Position numbers and translations under genes: made by a program. A stretch of DNA of 34,921 nucleotides from positions 1 through 34,921 of IMG/VR virus record IMGVR_UViG_3300037247_000115. One strand, 5' to 3'. Source of the DNA: a virus. Position 1 is the first letter of the stretch. Every line of letters starts with the position of its first letter. Below, one piece after another: positions 1,027 through 26,178 of the stretch. The notes below the pieces were generated by a model. That model ran no database searches. It was not told where the DNA came from and saw only the letters and a program-made list of their open reading frames with translations.

Positions 1027-1500
1027 CTAAGGGGCTAAATTTACATGTACATGTCTTGAGGTTTTTAAATAATACTTATACGAGGTAGTTACTTTATATC
1101 CTCTAAGTTTAGCACAATATATAATAATTCTCGACATCATTACAGGGTCTAGTTTTATACCTTTTTTCTTGCCTGTAATATCTATGGCTCTTCCATACAT
1201 ATGATTCGAGTTTTTGTCTACATAGTTCGGGAATCCTATTCCAGTCTTTTTAAATTCTTCATGAGATACCCACATATCATTGTTATATTCAGGGCATCTG
1301 TACCCAGTAACACTTACTGTACAAGTCTTTAATTCATATATAGCATTTAAAACGTCTCTAACGTCCTGTGCCAGTATTTTAAGCTCTGGACGTACATTGC
1401 TTCTATTCTCATTATAAGTAGTCTTACAATGACTGCAAGAGAATTCATTATTCCAGAAATTCTCTTGTGCTTGATAATCAAATCTTACTTTTGAAGCCAT
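1027..1500 (-). CDS. Endolysin, peptidase M15 family
   Basis: A 157-residue cell-wall peptidase, expected to cut the peptide part of peptidoglycan at lysis. The zinc site of the M15 family is complete: a SxHxxGxAxD-type motif at residues 98-107 (His100, Asp107) and HVH at 150-152 (His152). The N-terminus carries a Cys pair (Cys22, Cys25), and TGYRCPEYN at 65-73 is the usual strand-turn of these enzymes. There is no signal peptide and no separate wall-binding domain, so export depends on the holin encoded two bases upstream. The ribosome site is a modest AAGG inside the end of the holin gene, so the two are translationally coupled. Substrate bond (L-Ala-D-Glu or D-Ala-D-Ala type) cannot be told from sequence. 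Confidence 0.9.
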   Translation of the reverse strand: MASKVRFDYQAQENFWNNEFSCSHCKTTYNENRSNVRPELKILAQDVRDVLNAIYELKTCTVSVTGYRCPEYNNDMWVSHEEFKKTGIGFPNYVDKNSNHMYGRAIDITGKKKGIKLDPVMMSRIIIYCAKLRGYKVTTSYKYYLKTSRHVHVNLAP

Positions 1501-1502
1501 CT

Positions 1503-1715
1503 TTAAAAGCCTTTCTTGTTAGTTGGGTTGTTACCATTTGCAAATACACCAACTACTGTGCTTATAGATATAAGTGCTACTTTTAAAGTCTCCATTTGTG
1601 ATACATCAATAATATCAAATGCTACCAATATTGTTAATATGTGGCATGCAATACCAGCCCAAAATACTGGACTTTTAAATCTATTTTGTTTTGTTTCTTT
1701 TACGTTGTTTTCCAT
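1503..1715 (-). CDS. Holin, LC3-like
   Basis: A 70-residue membrane protein that should form lesions in the cytoplasmic membrane and release the endolysin. Two hydrophobic segments are visible (about residues 17-35 and 45-60), with the N-terminal KSPVFWAGI pattern and an Asn-Pro-Thr near the C-terminus (NNPTNKKGF), as in the phi-LC3 holin family. The charged N-terminus and short Lys-rich tail fit class II holins. The start ATG at 1715 has AAAGGAG eight bases upstream. The adjacent endolysin supports the call strongly. Confidence 0.88.
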   Translation of the reverse strand: MENNVKETKQNRFKSPVFWAGIACHILTILVAFDIIDVSQMETLKVALISISTVVGVFANGNNPTNKKGF

Positions 1716-16862: not shown

Positions 16863-18097
16863 TACCAACCCCATTTCTGCATTGTCATTTCGCCTTCTAA
16901 TGCATATCTACACCCGTCTATGTGGTGATTGTCTTTGTCTCTTAGTCTATTCAATGTATTTCCCATTCTGTCAACCTCGTAGTCTGCTGACTCAAATTCC
17001 TGTGCTATATGTGATGTTCTATTTGGATCTATTACTATGGCTTCTAAATCATCTAACCACTTTTCGCCAAACTCTACGCTTCCTTGTCCCTTCTTTGCTC
17101 CTTTTATATTTATGTTATAAGTTTTCATTTCAGCTATACTCTTGGGTTCTGCGCTATCTGCTATTGTTAAATCTCTATCATAGCCTTTAGCTTTGAGCAT
17201 ATCAGATACCTTTCTATTGGATAGTTTAATCTGATATATTTCATCTATAGCATATAATATCCTTCTAGTCTTGTCATAATGCCATCTTCCGAATGCTAAT
17301 GGATCTGCAGCATATCCCCAGTCAAGTCCTTGCTTAATATTGTCAAATGATTTTATTTCATCATCTGTTATTTCCCTAAACTCTAGGTTTGTAAAAGGTA
17401 CAATTCCACTACCTACTGGTTCTCCCATGTATATCCAATTATATTTCTGTATGCTACTTTCCTTAACTCTCTCTGCTTCTTCTATCATCTGTTTACTACA
17501 ATAAGGGTTATCTAGGTAAGTGCTGTGGTGTATATATGTGTTATCAGCCGTTACTGCTGTGTTATACTTTTTGTTTAGCCAGTGGCTTTTCTGCTTAGGT
17601 GGGTTATAACTGTATAATGCGTGATACTTTAACCCGTCCGGTAATTCTTCTCTTAGTAGTGAGTTCAATATAACTAATACTTCATCTTCTGTTCTGAACT
17701 CCATTAGTTCCTCAATCCACATTATAGCTATTGGGAACTTCTCACTCTTAATTGATTGTATCTTAGTGGGGTTATCTGCTCCCCTGAATATTATCTGTTG
17801 CCCTGTAGGTGTATACGTTAGCCTTAGAGGTTTCTTTGTTCCTGTCCATTGTTCTGATACTCCCAATTTATTAACCGCCCATAGTAGCTGTGCGAATACG
17901 CTTAGTTCCATTGTATTTTCTACTTTTCGTATAATCAATGCATTTATTGGGTGCTTCATTACCTCTACTATTATCTTTAGTGCCTTGTGAGTTGACTTGC
18001 CTGAATTTCTTCCGCCTTTGCCAACTATATGTAAATGCTCATCATATGCCCTCCAAAAATTATAGAAGGCTGGTGTTACTATGTCTGATAGTCTCAT
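16862..18097 (-). CDS. terL: Terminase large subunit
   Basis: 411 residues; the ATPase-nuclease motor that packages DNA. Walker A is GGRNSGKST (28-36), Walker B is IAIMWIEE with catalytic Glu (123-130), and YSYNPP (163-168) is the coupling motif. The nuclease domain shows its acidic residues in GLDWGYAADP (Asp259), IADSAEP (Asp314) and HHIDGCRYALE (Asp394). It is of the PBSX/SPP1 type, which usually goes with headful (pac) packaging, although the sequence alone does not prove this. Start overlaps the small subunit stop (ATGA). Confidence 0.93.
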   Translation of the reverse strand: MRLSDIVTPAFYNFWRAYDEHLHIVGKGGRNSGKSTHKALKIIVEVMKHPINALIIRKVENTMELSVFAQLLWAVNKLGVSEQWTGTKKPLRLTYTPTGQQIIFRGADNPTKIQSIKSEKFPIAIMWIEELMEFRTEDEVLVILNSLLREELPDGLKYHALYSYNPPKQKSHWLNKKYNTAVTADNTYIHHSTYLDNPYCSKQMIEEAERVKESSIQKYNWIYMGEPVGSGIVPFTNLEFREITDDEIKSFDNIKQGLDWGYAADPLAFGRWHYDKTRRILYAIDEIYQIKLSNRKVSDMLKAKGYDRDLTIADSAEPKSIAEMKTYNINIKGAKKGQGSVEFGEKWLDDLEAIVIDPNRTSHIAQEFESADYEVDRMGNTLNRLRDKDNHHIDGCRYALEGEMTMQKWGW

Positions 18098-18564
18098 TTT
18101 ATATCATCTATTATTTGTACTGCCATATTACCTGAATGTTCAATTTCTTGTTTATCTCTCCAGTCTTTAGGTTGTCTATTCTTCAACCAAAAAATAATAG
18201 CCGTTGTATCAGGTGGTGTATACACTTCATCTGCTGCGGTTATTATCTCTTCCTTTTCTATTAGTCTCTTGCCGTTATCATAAGTCACCTGTTTAACTTT
18301 GAATGCTTTCTGTATAGTTGTCTTATGCCCTTTGGCTTTTTTAAACAAAGAATCTTGTATCTCCATATCAGCTAATAGCTTACTTGCTTTTAAGGACTCA
18401 AAGAATGCTTCGTGCTTTAATTTCCAGTTATTTATTGTTGTATCGGTTATATTAAGAACATCAGCCATCTGCTTATCTGTTAAGCCATACTTAGCCATGT
18501 TAATTATGAAATCTTTATAATCCTCGAACTTGCTAGGCTGCCCAGCTTTGCGTTTTTCTGACAT
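18094..18564 (-). CDS. terS: Terminase small subunit
   Basis: 156 residues. The N-terminal HTH (YGLTDKQMADVLNITDTTINNW, about 26-47) is that of terminase small subunits, which recognise the packaging site. A helical core follows, and the end (FWLKNRQPKDWRDKQEIEHSG, about 125-145) matches the family's C-terminal motif that contacts the large subunit. It is the first gene of the late operon: its own promoter lies at 18583-18611, and GTGAGG lies before the ATG. In SPP1-like phages the pac site lies in or near this gene. Confidence 0.9.
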   Translation of the reverse strand: MSEKRKAGQPSKFEDYKDFIINMAKYGLTDKQMADVLNITDTTINNWKLKHEAFFESLKASKLLADMEIQDSLFKKAKGHKTTIQKAFKVKQVTYDNGKRLIEKEEIITAADEVYTPPDTTAIIFWLKNRQPKDWRDKQEIEHSGNMAVQIIDDIK

Positions 18565-20469: not shown

Positions 20470-20810
20470 TTCTTCTCCGTTATGGTATCGTTTAATATGT
20501 CTTTCAATTCCTTGAATCTTGTTACATCTTTTTTAAATGTTTCGTAGGTTGATTCTTCATCTTCGGCATTAAGCATTTCACTCATTACTTTATTAAGTGT
20601 TTTTTCTGTGATTGGCAATACTTGCATCACCCCATTAACCATTAAGTCGTATTTAGCATTTAAGGCAGAGGAGTTATAATCTCCAGTTCTTACTTCTACA
20701 ATACTAATCGCCATTCCTTTTGAGAGAATCGCTTTTCTTGTTACTACCTTGCTAACATTGTTTTCATCATATTCGTTATCTAAAAACTCTATTTCTATAA
20801 AACCTTTCAT
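20466..20810 (-). CDS. Unknown 114-residue protein
   Basis: A beta-rich N-terminal half (FIEIEFLDNEYD, KAILSKGMAISIVEV) and an acidic helical C-terminal half. No catalytic motif. It starts on the stop of the previous gene (TAATG) with AGGAG upstream and ends four bases into the next gene (ATGA overlap). Unassigned; presumably cytoplasmic. Confidence 0.62.
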   Translation of the reverse strand: MKGFIEIEFLDNEYDENNVSKVVTRKAILSKGMAISIVEVRTGDYNSSALNAKYDLMVNGVMQVLPITEKTLNKVMSEMLNAEDEESTYETFKKDVTRFKELKDILNDTITEKK

Positions 20811-21145
20811 TATTCTACTCCTATCCTTTCTACTAATCTAACATATTCCCACGTCAAAATATTATACTCCTTGATAAGTTCACTTAAATCATAACTAGGT
20901 GCCTCTGTGACCATCTGTGTGGGTTTCTCTGCGATTAAATGTAATTGTACCCTAATGTCGCTTAAATCTTCTTGTAGGCTCTTGTACTGCCCTTGTAAAA
21001 TATGGAGTTCACTTTGTATATCAGGCTCAAGATCGCCAATCTCCTTAATTTTATAAACTCCAAGAGTGAATACGCATGTTAGCATTATCAACAATAACAA
21101 TATAACTATAATTGATGTTAGAATATTTTTAGTCTTTTCGCTCAT
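20810..21145 (-). CDS. Single-pass membrane protein with coiled-coil
   Basis: 111 residues. Short basic cytosolic start (MSEKTKN), one strong hydrophobic segment (about 8-29), then a helical, probably extracellular coiled-coil (about 40-70). I use ATG 21145, with GAGGGAG six bases before it; the upstream ATG at 21163 lies inside the previous gene and lacks a site. A membrane protein in an early operon may act on host entry or exclusion of other phages; this is speculation. Confidence 0.65.
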   Translation of the reverse strand: MSEKTKNILTSIIVILLLLIMLTCVFTLGVYKIKEIGDLEPDIQSELHILQGQYKSLQEDLSDIRVQLHLIAEKPTQMVTEAPSYDLSELIKEYNILTWEYVRLVERIGVE

Positions 21146-21146
21146 T

Positions 21147-21344
21147 TTACGCTCCCTCTGCATTTATACCTAAATATTTAAAAACTTCTATGAGAAGTTC
21201 TTGACCAAACTCTGTGAATCCGTACCTAAACTCTTCGTCGCTGTTGCTGTATACAATTATGCAATCATTGTCTATCATAACCTCGAATGTTTTCCCCTTG
21301 TCTTGTATCAATCGTGTCATCATGCGCTTATCATTTTCGTTCAT
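21147..21344 (-). CDS. Unknown 65-residue protein
   Basis: Acidic small protein with a beta-hairpin-like middle (FEVMIDNDCIIVYSN) and a helix at the end. The ATG at 21344 follows AAGGAG and overlaps the previous stop. No family recognised. Confidence 0.6.
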   Translation of the reverse strand: MNENDKRMMTRLIQDKGKTFEVMIDNDCIIVYSNSDEEFRYGFTEFGQELLIEVFKYLGINAEGA

Positions 21345-22882: not shown

Positions 22883-23111
22883 TCACCTCTACAATCTTAA
22901 TAGTTTTGCCAAGTATTTCGATTTCATCAATAGTAAATCCACTTTTGCTAGCATTAGTTCTGTTGCATATAGTTTTGGAACAAGTTCGTTTATTGAAGTC
23001 TAATACTATTCTTTCTTTATAACTTCTAAGTTCCCTCAAAAATATTAAACAGTCTGCATCTCCTGATATTTGATACCCTAATTTATTCCACATCTTGCTT
23101 ATTTCTTTCAT
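22872..23111 (-). CDS. Unknown 79-residue protein
   Basis: Small, basic in the middle (LRSYKERIVLDFNKRTCSKTICNRTNASKSG), with three Cys and an acidic end that includes a beta-strand pair (IDEIEILGKTIKIVEV). AGAGGTGAAAG precedes ATG 23111, overlapping the previous stop. It does not continue the truncated ASCH domain of that gene. Unassigned. Confidence 0.6.
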   Translation of the reverse strand: MKEISKMWNKLGYQISGDADCLIFLRELRSYKERIVLDFNKRTCSKTICNRTNASKSGFTIDEIEILGKTIKIVEVNDD

Positions 23112-23641
23112 CTTTCACCTCTCATTGCTATTGGTAATGTTCTGCGAAATTCAAGAACTTTATCTCCTGACTTAATCATGTCGAACCACTTCTGATGTGT
23201 TGGCATTAGGATCGCTTTTGTTGGAGCCATGTATGGTTTACATATATATTGGAATGATTGTGGTAATCTTTTGATTATTTTAGTATCACAACCTTCTTCA
23301 TCTCCATAGCCTACGATATAATCGTTGCAACCATGAGCATGAGCATTTAATCTTTCATAATCATTAGCTAATTCATAGTCCTCTTCTCTGAAATCTTTAA
23401 TCTCTATTGCATACTTAGGCACTTCCCCATCATATCCCTGTCTTTGTAATCCAGCATAATCTTCATCATCTATAAACAAGTCATGTGATATGTCTTTAGT
23501 TTTGCTGAATCTAATATGTTCTAATACTCTTTTGTAATCGTTCCCATAATACAAAATCTCATAGATATTCCCTACTTCATAACTTCCTCTAACCATTCCT
23601 CCTGTACCTGTAATTCCTAAATATATTCTCGTACCTTTCAC
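23108..23641 (-). CDS. Protein ending in a truncated ASCH-like domain
   Basis: 177 residues, GTG start at 23641 (GAGGTG upstream; GTGA overlap with the previous stop). The first 130 residues form an unknown acidic domain with beta-strands (GTRIYLGITGTGGMVRGSYEVG) and a D/E-rich middle. Residues about 144-171 (AILMPTHQKWFDMIKSGDKVLEFRR) match the beginning of an ASCH domain, known for RNA-binding and base-modification roles, but the protein stops six residues later, without the rest of the domain (usually some 80-100 more residues). Confidence 0.68.
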   Translation of the reverse strand: MKGTRIYLGITGTGGMVRGSYEVGNIYEILYYGNDYKRVLEHIRFSKTKDISHDLFIDDEDYAGLQRQGYDGEVPKYAIEIKDFREEDYELANDYERLNAHAHGCNDYIVGYGDEEGCDTKIIKRLPQSFQYICKPYMAPTKAILMPTHQKWFDMIKSGDKVLEFRRTLPIAMRGER

Positions 23642-23854: not shown

Positions 23855-24313
23855 CTAATAACGCCATTTATACAAATACACCATATAATCACATCTCTTG
23901 ATAAAAGTTAGTGTATGAATATTTGTATTGCCTATGTCGTTGAATGTTGCATCTAGGTAATAAAACCTTTTTTGTATTCTGACAGCGTTCCATGTGTGCG
24001 TTTCTCCATCTACTATACCAAAACATATGTTATTAGTTATGCCTAAGTGATCAAAGAATAGCCTAGCCGTCTCTGTATAGCCCATACACATAGACTTATT
24101 TAATAAGACAGCTGATATCATATCGTTATACGCTCCTGTGTAATCGTATTCTGTGTTCCTGGCTATGAAATCATTAACTGCTTCAACTTGGGCTTGTTCA
24201 GATAGATGCTCATATAATTTAGCTTCGTTATAAACTATGGCATCTGCTTTTGGCTCACTTGCATGTGCTGTTGTTGGCAATAATATTAATAATACGATTA
24301 TAAGTGTTTTCAT
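23855..24313 (-). CDS. Secreted transglutaminase-like cysteine protein
   Basis: 152 residues. N-terminal signal peptide: MK, then a hydrophobic core (3-13), and a cleavage site after Ala18 (A-H-A). The mature part holds the transglutaminase-like triad: Cys76 (KSMCMGYT), His106 (ETHTWNAV) and Asp121 (YYLDATF), in the right order and spacing. This superfamily contains cysteine peptidases and amide-forming or amide-breaking enzymes acting on proteins or cell wall. ATG 24313 has AAAGG seven bases upstream; the earlier ATG at 24361 would bury the signal peptide. Being early and secreted, it may alter the host surface, for instance to block other phages or help spread. No membrane anchor or second domain is visible. 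Confidence 0.78.
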   Translation of the reverse strand: MKTLIIVLLILLPTTAHASEPKADAIVYNEAKLYEHLSEQAQVEAVNDFIARNTEYDYTGAYNDMISAVLLNKSMCMGYTETARLFFDHLGITNNICFGIVDGETHTWNAVRIQKRFYYLDATFNDIGNTNIHTLTFIKRCDYMVYLYKWRY

Positions 24314-24651
24314 TATATTTCCTTTCCTACATATTTTAATAATTCCCATAGTGCATCGCATAGTTCCTTTTCTTCATGTTCGACTCCATCTTTAAAGCCT
24401 TTTCCAAGTTTCACCATAGATTTTTCTAAACCTGTGTAAACAGTAACTCCCCAATCTATGTTCAATATCTCTATCATCTTCCCTATGTTAATCTCACTTA
24501 ACAATTTATTTAGCCCTATATATTTGCTATTTTTAATATCTAGTATTCTTTTTGATGCCTTTATTCCATTAGGTCTTATTAACTTATATAACTTCATAAA
24601 TGTTTTATCATCAAGTTCTCTTAATTGTTCTAATTTTATATGTTGTTTCAT
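24313..24651 (-). CDS. Unknown 112-residue protein
   Basis: Helical and basic, with two segments of interest: ASKRILDIKNSKYIGLNKLL and EEKELCDALWELLKYVGKE. It ends exactly at the start of the transglutaminase-like gene (one base overlap), so the two are co-translated; it could be a cytoplasmic partner. GAAGAGG precedes ATG 24651. Unassigned. Confidence 0.63.
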   Translation of the reverse strand: MKQHIKLEQLRELDDKTFMKLYKLIRPNGIKASKRILDIKNSKYIGLNKLLSEINIGKMIEILNIDWGVTVYTGLEKSMVKLGKGFKDGVEHEEKELCDALWELLKYVGKEI

Positions 24652-24865: not shown

Positions 24866-25402
24866 TTATACCTCTCCTACTTTCACTTGTACTAATCTCC
24901 TACTTGCTACTACGTCTTTTACATTTTCATATTGCATAGAGTTTGATGTTATTAAATCTGCTGGGTCTATATATTTACTTAGCGGTTCCATATGATATGG
25001 TGATGGTCTTGATTTTTTAATTTTACGTCCATCATAGCGTTCTTCATTTCCTTTTTCACATTGATCACAATATAAAGTGTACTCGTTGTAATAAACCGCA
25101 GTTCTAATATAAATCTTCTTATCATATGTTATTAATCCGAAATCCATACAACACCAACATTCCACATTAGTTGAAACTTCTTCTTCAAATGGTTTTTTAA
25201 ATATATTGTATTCTTTTTTTATTTCAGCCATTGAAGGTAAGAATTTAGAAGTCATTTGCAGTCTAGCAATTGTTGAGGTAGTAATATCATAATCTAATTC
25301 CATTAAGAAATTGCCGTATACATCACGCATTTCTTGATTTACAGTTCTAGCCCATGAACCAGTTATTTTATCTAATAATACTCTTGCTTGTTTCTTATCC
25401 AT
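24866..25402 (-). CDS. Helicase-loader-like replication protein
   Basis: 178 residues. The N-terminus (about 8-65: LDKITGSWARTVNQEMRDVYGNFLMELDYD, then TTSTIARLQMTSKFLPSMAEI) follows the pattern of SPP1 G39P-type helicase loaders: a W-x-x-x-V helix, a Y-x-x-x-L-x-D/E-Y helix, then K-F-x-P-S. A Cys-rich part (CWCCMDFG at about 82-89; YCDQCEKG at about 110-117) adds a zinc ribbon. It starts on the stop of the replisome organizer (TAATG), the common pairing of initiator and loader. It would load the host DnaC-type helicase. Confidence 0.72.
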   Translation of the reverse strand: MDKKQARVLLDKITGSWARTVNQEMRDVYGNFLMELDYDITTSTIARLQMTSKFLPSMAEIKKEYNIFKKPFEEEVSTNVECWCCMDFGLITYDKKIYIRTAVYYNEYTLYCDQCEKGNEERYDGRKIKKSRPSPYHMEPLSKYIDPADLITSNSMQYENVKDVVASRRLVQVKVGEV

Positions 25403-26178
25403 TAAAAATGCTCACTTTCTATTTCTTCAATTTCAGAAAAATTGCCGTTTGTGTAATCAATATATCCATTGTTAAAGAAGGTACTTCCATTCTGTATATA
25501 CTTGTTATCATTAGCTTTCTCTGCTGTGTATCGTGTTATACAAGTTTTAAATTCATCACCTAGTTTATAAAGTTTAGTCTTAGTTGTTGCGCTCACAGAC
25601 CCTTTACCACGTTTGACTGGGTACATAGCCCAACATTCTTCAAAGAAATTATTTACTTTCTTTTTCATTTCTATTTCATTTGGTTTACTTTCTCTTTCTG
25701 TTTCCTTTCCTTTTACTTTACTTTGTGTACCAATGTCATCATTTAAGGGTAAAATGTCTACATTAATGTTTTCCGAGTTGTATTGTTCTTTAACATTTAT
25801 GAGTAAAAACTCTTCAATAAAACTAACTTCTTTTCTTCTTTCTGTAGCCGAACAATAGTTGAATTGTATGCGTTTAGAAGTTAAAATATCGTACTTTTCG
25901 TATAGTTTCTTATCAAACAGTTCTTTATTAATGCAATCATTTAAGATTAAAATGTATACATTTAAGGCTAAATTGTTATCATCACAGAACAGAATATTGT
26001 AATCTTCGTCTAAATGTATGTAGTAACCTTTTGACCTATATATGTCCTCTAGCAATCTTAGATACACAGCATATCCAATTAATCCATGTTTGGCTTTGAT
26101 GATTTTAACTTTAGTATCTTGCAACATATCTACATCATGGCTGAAATATTGGATTCCAACTTTACCTTTTCTAGCCAT
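25402..26178 (-). CDS. Replisome organizer (DUF4373 N-terminus)
   Basis: 258 residues. The first 130 residues (YFSHDVDMLQDTKVKIIKAKHGLIGYAVYLRLLEDIYRSKGYY as positions about 11-53) are the DUF4373 winged-helix module of phage replication initiators, where H-D-x-D-m-l-x-D-x-K opens the domain. The acidic/polar linker follows (about 140-175). The last part (FEECWAMYPVKRGKGSVSATTK, about 178-199) matches the C-terminal DnaD-like or G-K-rich DNA-binding end of such proteins. In related phages the origin lies within this gene; here two in-frame 27-base repeats with palindromes (25738-25764, 25936-25962) are candidates. Confidence 0.83.
   Translation of the reverse strand: MARKGKVGIQYFSHDVDMLQDTKVKIIKAKHGLIGYAVYLRLLEDIYRSKGYYIHLDEDYNILFCDDNNLALNVYILILNDCINKELFDKKLYEKYDILTSKRIQFNYCSATERRKEVSFIEEFLLINVKEQYNSENINVDILPLNDDIGTQSKVKGKETERESKPNEIEMKKKVNNFFEECWAMYPVKRGKGSVSATTKTKLYKLGDEFKTCITRYTAEKANDNKYIQNGSTFFNNGYIDYTNGNFSEIEEIESEHF
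25738..25962. repeat. 27-base direct repeats in the initiator gene, possible origin boxes
   Basis: Plus strand ATCATTTAAG, two variable bases, TAAAATGT, one variable base, TACATT occurs at 25738-25764 and 25936-25962 (24 of 27 identical). Each copy contains a palindrome-like AATGT-N-TACATT core. They are 198 bases apart, so the same reading frame is kept (peptide NV-x-IL-x-LND). Confidence 0.5.

Follow-up and report, generated by a model that had tools for sequence, protein, structure and literature searches.

A putative exported transglutaminase-like enzyme encoded in the replication-side operon of a phage with a probable clostridial host

Analysing a viral contig of 34,921 nucleotides (IMG/VR record IMGVR_UViG_3300037247_000115; the whole stretch of DNA analysed is hereafter called the window), we found that a gene of 152 codons encodes a protein, P0001, which is a new phage member of the transglutaminase-like superfamily, and we consider this annotation sound. 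The protein sequence, the catalytic triad, the domain assignment, the position of the gene in its operon (Table 1) and the absence of the domain from the sampled relatives of the phage are direct observations; activity, substrate and benefit to the phage are what we infer from them. Unusual about P0001 is the combination of a bare, presumably exported domain with a place in a replication-side operon. On balance, we lean towards the reading that P0001 is a minimal, stand-alone, Sec-exported transglutaminase-like enzyme, the product of an accessory gene, which would attack an amide bond in the host envelope and would do so by hydrolysis rather than by cross-linking.

Table 1 Features of the window discussed in the text, with the evidence on which each assignment rests
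Feature	Position	Strand	Basis
Replication initiation protein, early/replication operon	25402..26178	(-)	PF14297 E 4e-26; PHROG 2562 E 4e-44
112-aa protein, widespread phage family	24313..24651	(-)	31 relatives in viral contigs
Ribosome-binding site AGGAAAGGA, within the end of the upstream gene	24320..24328	(-)	Sequence
Stop/start overlap TAATG, 112-aa gene and P0001	24315-24311	(-)	Sequence
P0001, gene of a predicted exported transglutaminase-like protein, 152 aa	23855..24313	(-)	Translation, PF01841, AlphaFold2 model and fold matches
Residues 1-18 (MKTLIIVLLILLPTTAHA), predicted signal peptide, with S19 as the predicted first mature residue	24260..24313	(-)	Sequence; hydropathy of 3.1 in a stretch of 11 residues
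C76-M77, predicted nucleophile Cys76 in CMGYT	24083..24088	(-)	Invariant in 76 sequences; begins helix 76-90 in the model
His106, predicted catalytic, in HTWN	23996..23998	(-)	Invariant in 76 sequences; on strand 104-113
Asp121, predicted catalytic, in YYLDAT	23951..23953	(-)	Invariant in 76 sequences; end of strand 116-120
Terminase small subunit, start of the late genes	18094..18564	(-)	PHROG 309 E 4e-46
Holin-like gene, late region	1503-1715	(-)	
M15-type endolysin, late region	1027-1500	(-)	

Catalytic triad, fold and predicted export

The original prediction, made from the sequence alone, had described an early-region secreted transglutaminase-like protein and had left its strand unstated. 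Translation of the minus strand from 24313 down to 23855 confirms the observation, the plus strand across the same interval being packed with stop codons. The protein begins with MKTLIIVLLILLPTTAHA, followed by SEPK, and Cys76, His106 and Asp121 stand exactly in the contexts claimed for them (C-M-GYT for C-x-GYT, H-T-WN for H-x-WN, and YYLDAT). In a profile search, Pfam family PF01841 (Transglut_core) matched with 25.1 bits against a curated gathering cut-off of 23 (E 2.2e-5). The NCBIfam model NF045980 (MAG6410 transglutaminase-related lipoprotein) also matched (E 7e-15), with a score so far under the model's own cut-off that it denotes homology only and not identity with that family. Judged from these profiles and from the alignment described next, the resemblance of P0001 to the transglutaminase-like superfamily exceeds chance. 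Five residues (C76, H106, W108, D121 and T123) are invariant in an alignment of 76 sequences, which comprises P0001 and 75 related stretches out of bacterial genomes and viral contigs. Neither PF06035 (BTLCP/LapG) nor PF12386 (pseudomurein endoisopeptidase, C71) appears among the Pfam matches of P0001 at E <= 1, and PADLOC gave no match for it.

An AlphaFold2 model of the protein, computed from the alignment of 76 sequences (block-mean pLDDT 92-98 for residues 21-120, pTM 0.76, the last 25 residues being poorly modelled) contains the papain-like core that was to be expected of a true member of this superfamily: as modelled, the Cys begins a helix (residues 76-90), and His and Asp lie on the strands that follow (94-101, 104-113 and 116-120). 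Profile, alignment and structure model thus agree on an intact Cys-His-Asp triad in a papain-like fold, and the superfamily proposed at the outset stands; it should be noted that the model is not independent of homology, because its input alignment contains a single structural family. Among solved structures, the top match to the model was TglA of S. pyogenes (PDB 9crn; Z 15.5, rmsd 3.6, 124 residues aligned), followed by the S. suis TGase (PDB 4xz7; Z 12.5, 122 aligned), a putative cysteine protease of Cytophaga (Z 11.0) and LapG (Z about 10). Weaker matches were PeiW/PeiP (Z 8.2-8.3), TgpA (Z 8), and human TG3 and factor XIII (about 8). Scores as high as those of PeiW/PeiP are common to eukaryotic transglutaminases and arylamine N-acetyltransferases too, and on the evidence of the model the matches to PeiW/PeiP, TG3 and factor XIII are at a level that can be reached through the common arrangement alone. 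A fold search of BFVD hardly illuminates the viral relatives, since its sole match under E 1e-3 (I1ZBG7, 4e-4) is an unnamed protein.

The two best fold matches were both deposited as transglutaminases, which would suit a true cross-linking enzyme that joins surface proteins to one another or to the wall, as TglA might. The next matches (LapG, PeiW/PeiP and 3isr), however, are proteases or isopeptidases or are so named, P0001 is devoid of TglA's accessory parts (124 of 361 residues aligned), and the fold alone cannot separate a transamidase from a hydrolase, so that we consider cross-linking distinctly unlikely. Although TglA and the S. suis enzyme share their fold with P0001, they are cellular proteins of 360-380 residues with about 23% identity to it, too far off for their function to be transferred. 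The most likely role of P0001 is that of a hydrolase which is exported and acts on the envelope of the host.

Export had been proposed together with an A-H-A cleavage site, and the features of the N-terminus support it: a charged end with one lysine is followed by a hydrophobic stretch, a proline and the AHA of an AxA site, and reading of this region revealed no lipobox. On the minus strand of the window, six frames begin with a strongly hydrophobic N-terminus. Only P0001 reads as having a cleavable signal peptide, the other five being holin-like, membrane-anchored, structural or doubtful; by the same reading, it is the only gene of the window that combines a hydrophobic N-terminus and an AxA site without a further membrane segment. 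P0001 is accordingly annotated here as a predicted Sec-exported protein, whose mature domain would comprise 134 residues.

Operon position, neighbouring genes and the phage

All recognised genes of the window lie on the minus strand. Their order starts with an Erf-like annealing protein, SSB, the replication initiator (PF14297), a helicase-loader-like protein and a 63-aa protein, continues with the 112-aa protein, P0001, small genes, a Holliday-junction resolvase and the terminase, and ends with portal, head, tail, holin-like and endolysin genes. This order puts P0001 at the downstream end of a replication-side operon, and the term 'early' given to the gene holds as a statement of position only, the gene being flanked at a distance by the replication initiator on one side and the terminase small subunit on the other. 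Two further frames deserve mention. One of them (23108-23641, minus strand) ends with 30 residues that match ASCH-like families at their beginning (PHROG 3136, PADLOC PDC-M11B) before its stop, and this end is probably a truncated ASCH-like domain. The other (20810-21163, minus strand), which belongs to P0001's operon, encodes a membrane-anchored coiled-coil-like protein; a protein of similar layout is found at L105:5260-5595.

The ATG of P0001 and the TAA that ends the 112-aa gene have one base in common, and AGGAAAGGA precedes this ATG. The start is therefore coupled to the upstream stop, as had been predicted, and from the sequence the arrangement is best described as ordinary translational coupling. 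The further suggestion that the 112-aa protein may be a partner of P0001 found no support and was rejected: none of 31 viral loci of this family, collected with two short patterns, adjoins a transglutaminase gene, and no signal peptide was found in the family. Its members share the frame MKQHIT..EQL ... IG.MIE.L ... ELCDALWE, and the family is widespread among phages and apparently unnamed; the 112-aa protein gave no Pfam or PHROGs match here. At 1 of the 31 loci (L106/L140), the family member adjoins an exported HEYGH protein. The overlap also bears on the origin of the contig. Relatives of P0001 are mostly cellular, and the matching GenBank 'phage' records are bacterial contamination, which might raise the suspicion that the gene is bacterial DNA misassembled into a phage contig; yet the start of P0001 overlaps the stop of a phage-family gene, and phage genes lie on both sides on the same strand, making such a misjoin extremely improbable.

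The terminase of the window has relatives with 48-50% identity in viral contigs and with up to 61% in bacterial genomes, the latter drawn from the class of a Clostridium. The prophage with the 61% identical terminase, which is the nearest prophage, has an integrase. On the contig itself, which is linear, incomplete and without end repeats, neither an integrase nor a repressor was recognised. Based on the terminase relatives and on the integrase of the nearest prophage, the host is probably a member of the Clostridia, a Clostridium-like bacterium, and the phage is possibly temperate, a lifestyle that is plausible because this prophage relative carries an integrase.

Exported accessory enzymes of temperate phages commonly act as lysogenic-conversion factors, and conversion genes are usually located downstream of the lysin gene or next to the attachment site. 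The former counts in favour of P0001 being such a factor, which would help the lysogen through an effect on cells in its neighbourhood or on an animal host and not on phage infection; the latter counts against it. The integrase of the prophage relative and the description of the S. suis homologue as important for virulence (PMC10318531) agree with a conversion factor, but the gene lies inside a replication operon, and integrase and repressor were not recognised on this incomplete contig. We judge this explanation very unlikely.

Relatives in bacterial genomes and in viral records

PF01841 was found in none of ten viral records with related terminases, in none of seven with related replication initiators and in none of three prophage regions read, although these counts carry less weight because several of the relatives are short fragments. 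As the domain is missing from all 17 records that were related by terminase or by replication initiator, P0001 is regarded as accessory. In a sample of 391 genomes from one class (Clostridia), 86 match P0001 at E <= 1e-8, and across the genome collection relatives are encoded in at least 392 places. The 81 relative frames examined measure 267-1371 aa, the domain typically begins well inside them, and none is as short as P0001; in 48 of them the N-terminal part includes a hydrophobic stretch. By these sequence counts, related domains appear to be common in exported proteins of Clostridia and were only rarely found here in phages. Identity of P0001 to any relative amounts to only about 22-41%, and in the tree it forms a long branch (support 94/72) without a secure place, for which reasons function cannot be transferred from any characterised protein. 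No near relative of the gene was present in any collection searched, and a single-sequence search of viral contigs with P0001 returned no match.

Two loci were confirmed in the viral collection, L019 and L020. The former (IMGVR_UViG_3300020112_000656, L019:5455-6717, plus strand) encodes a 420-aa protein which, like P0001, combines PF01841 with a hydrophobic N-terminus in a phage contig, but lies within a tail operon, contains a Big_2-like region and is only 28% identical. L020 was rejected as a viral relative, the match being located beyond the prophage edge, in the bacterial flank among PTS-like genes. Phage records of GenBank were rejected as well, the flanks read in the faecal MT83xxxx scaffolds carrying host housekeeping genes. 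Caution should be undertaken with MT839980, MT835487, MT838290 and other MT83xxxx entries deposited as 'Bacteriophage sp.', whose bacterial flanks mislead searches for phage homologues.

Compared with the exported PF01841 proteins of Bacillota, P0001 has the same domain, the same triad (C-x-G / H-x-W-N / D-x-T) and the papain-like core, and these proteins, too, are often exported. The cellular relatives contain other regions beside the domain, whereas P0001, encoded in the replication operon of a phage, consists of a signal peptide and the bare domain. The simplest reading of these comparisons makes P0001 an accessory gene that came from bacteria and was reduced to its catalytic domain.

Possible action at the host envelope

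The following course of events is proposed. The gene probably derives, through an old acquisition, from the transglutaminase-core proteins that Bacillota export, and its product would now be made with the replication-region operon. P0001 would cross the membrane by means of its signal peptide and be cleaved after A18, whereupon Cys76, His106 and Asp121 of the mature domain could act on an amide bond of some envelope protein or peptide of the host. Hydrolysis, be it proteolysis, isopeptide cleavage or deamidation, would be more likely than cross-linking, and the likely benefit would be an altered host surface during infection or lysogeny.

Related enzymes of phages are consistent with such a role. 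BTLCP proteinases were the commonest auxiliary gene in a single-virus survey of river phages in 2024, and its authors suggested that they modify the surface (PMC11283719). Like P0001, LapG/BTLCP (PF06035) is a small exported cysteine proteinase of similar fold, but P0001 has no match to its profile. PeiW and PeiP (PF12386, C71) are phage-encoded and have the Cys-His-Asp triad and the fold class in common with P0001; they cut isopeptide bonds of the wall and lyse cell walls (PMC4592898). In contrast to these enzymes, which act on archaeal walls, P0001 has a signal peptide, adjoins replication genes and does not match PF12386.

The same enzymes raise the question whether P0001 could be an accessory lysis or cell-wall enzyme, which cuts a wall peptide or an isopeptide link and loosens the wall before lysis. 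Beside the fold and triad shared with PeiW/PeiP, other small hydrolase-like genes in the early regions of two related phages (the HEYGH protein of L106 and the PF01832 protein of L168) would fit this explanation. Nonetheless, a holin-like gene and an M15-type endolysin are already present in the late region of the window, P0001 lies in the replication region and is without a recognisable wall-binding domain, and its score with PeiW/PeiP is also reached by the eukaryotic transglutaminases and arylamine N-acetyltransferases mentioned above. A contribution to lysis is thus unlikely, and we retain an exported hydrolase that alters the host surface as the preferred reading.

Should P0001 work outside the infected cell while infection proceeds, a phage would possess in it a compact tool for editing the surface of a Gram-positive, anaerobic host, and it would provide a handle on why transglutaminase-like proteinases recur as accessory genes of phages. 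As a bare catalytic domain, it is furthermore a convenient subject for finding out what the many uncharacterised exported PF01841 proteins of Clostridia do.

A broader idea, to which we assign a low probability, is that phages of Clostridia keep an interchangeable place in or beside the replication operon for a small exported envelope enzyme, which alters the host surface before the late genes are expressed and could, for example, shut out competing phages. P0001, the HEYGH protein and a glucosaminidase hint at this, three cases that were chosen by looking. The HEYGH protein (L106:3952-4425, plus strand) is an exported protein of 157 aa with a zinc-peptidase-like motif, which adjoins the relative of the 112-aa protein in an early region; it has no significant Pfam match, a SprT-like match stays under the cut-off, and its structure model reaches a pLDDT of 40, too low to be of use. 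The glucosaminidase (L168:13391-13741, plus strand; 116 aa), whose export is doubtful, matches PF01832 above the cut-off and is encoded in the early region of a prophage, the terminase of which is about 54% identical to that of the window.
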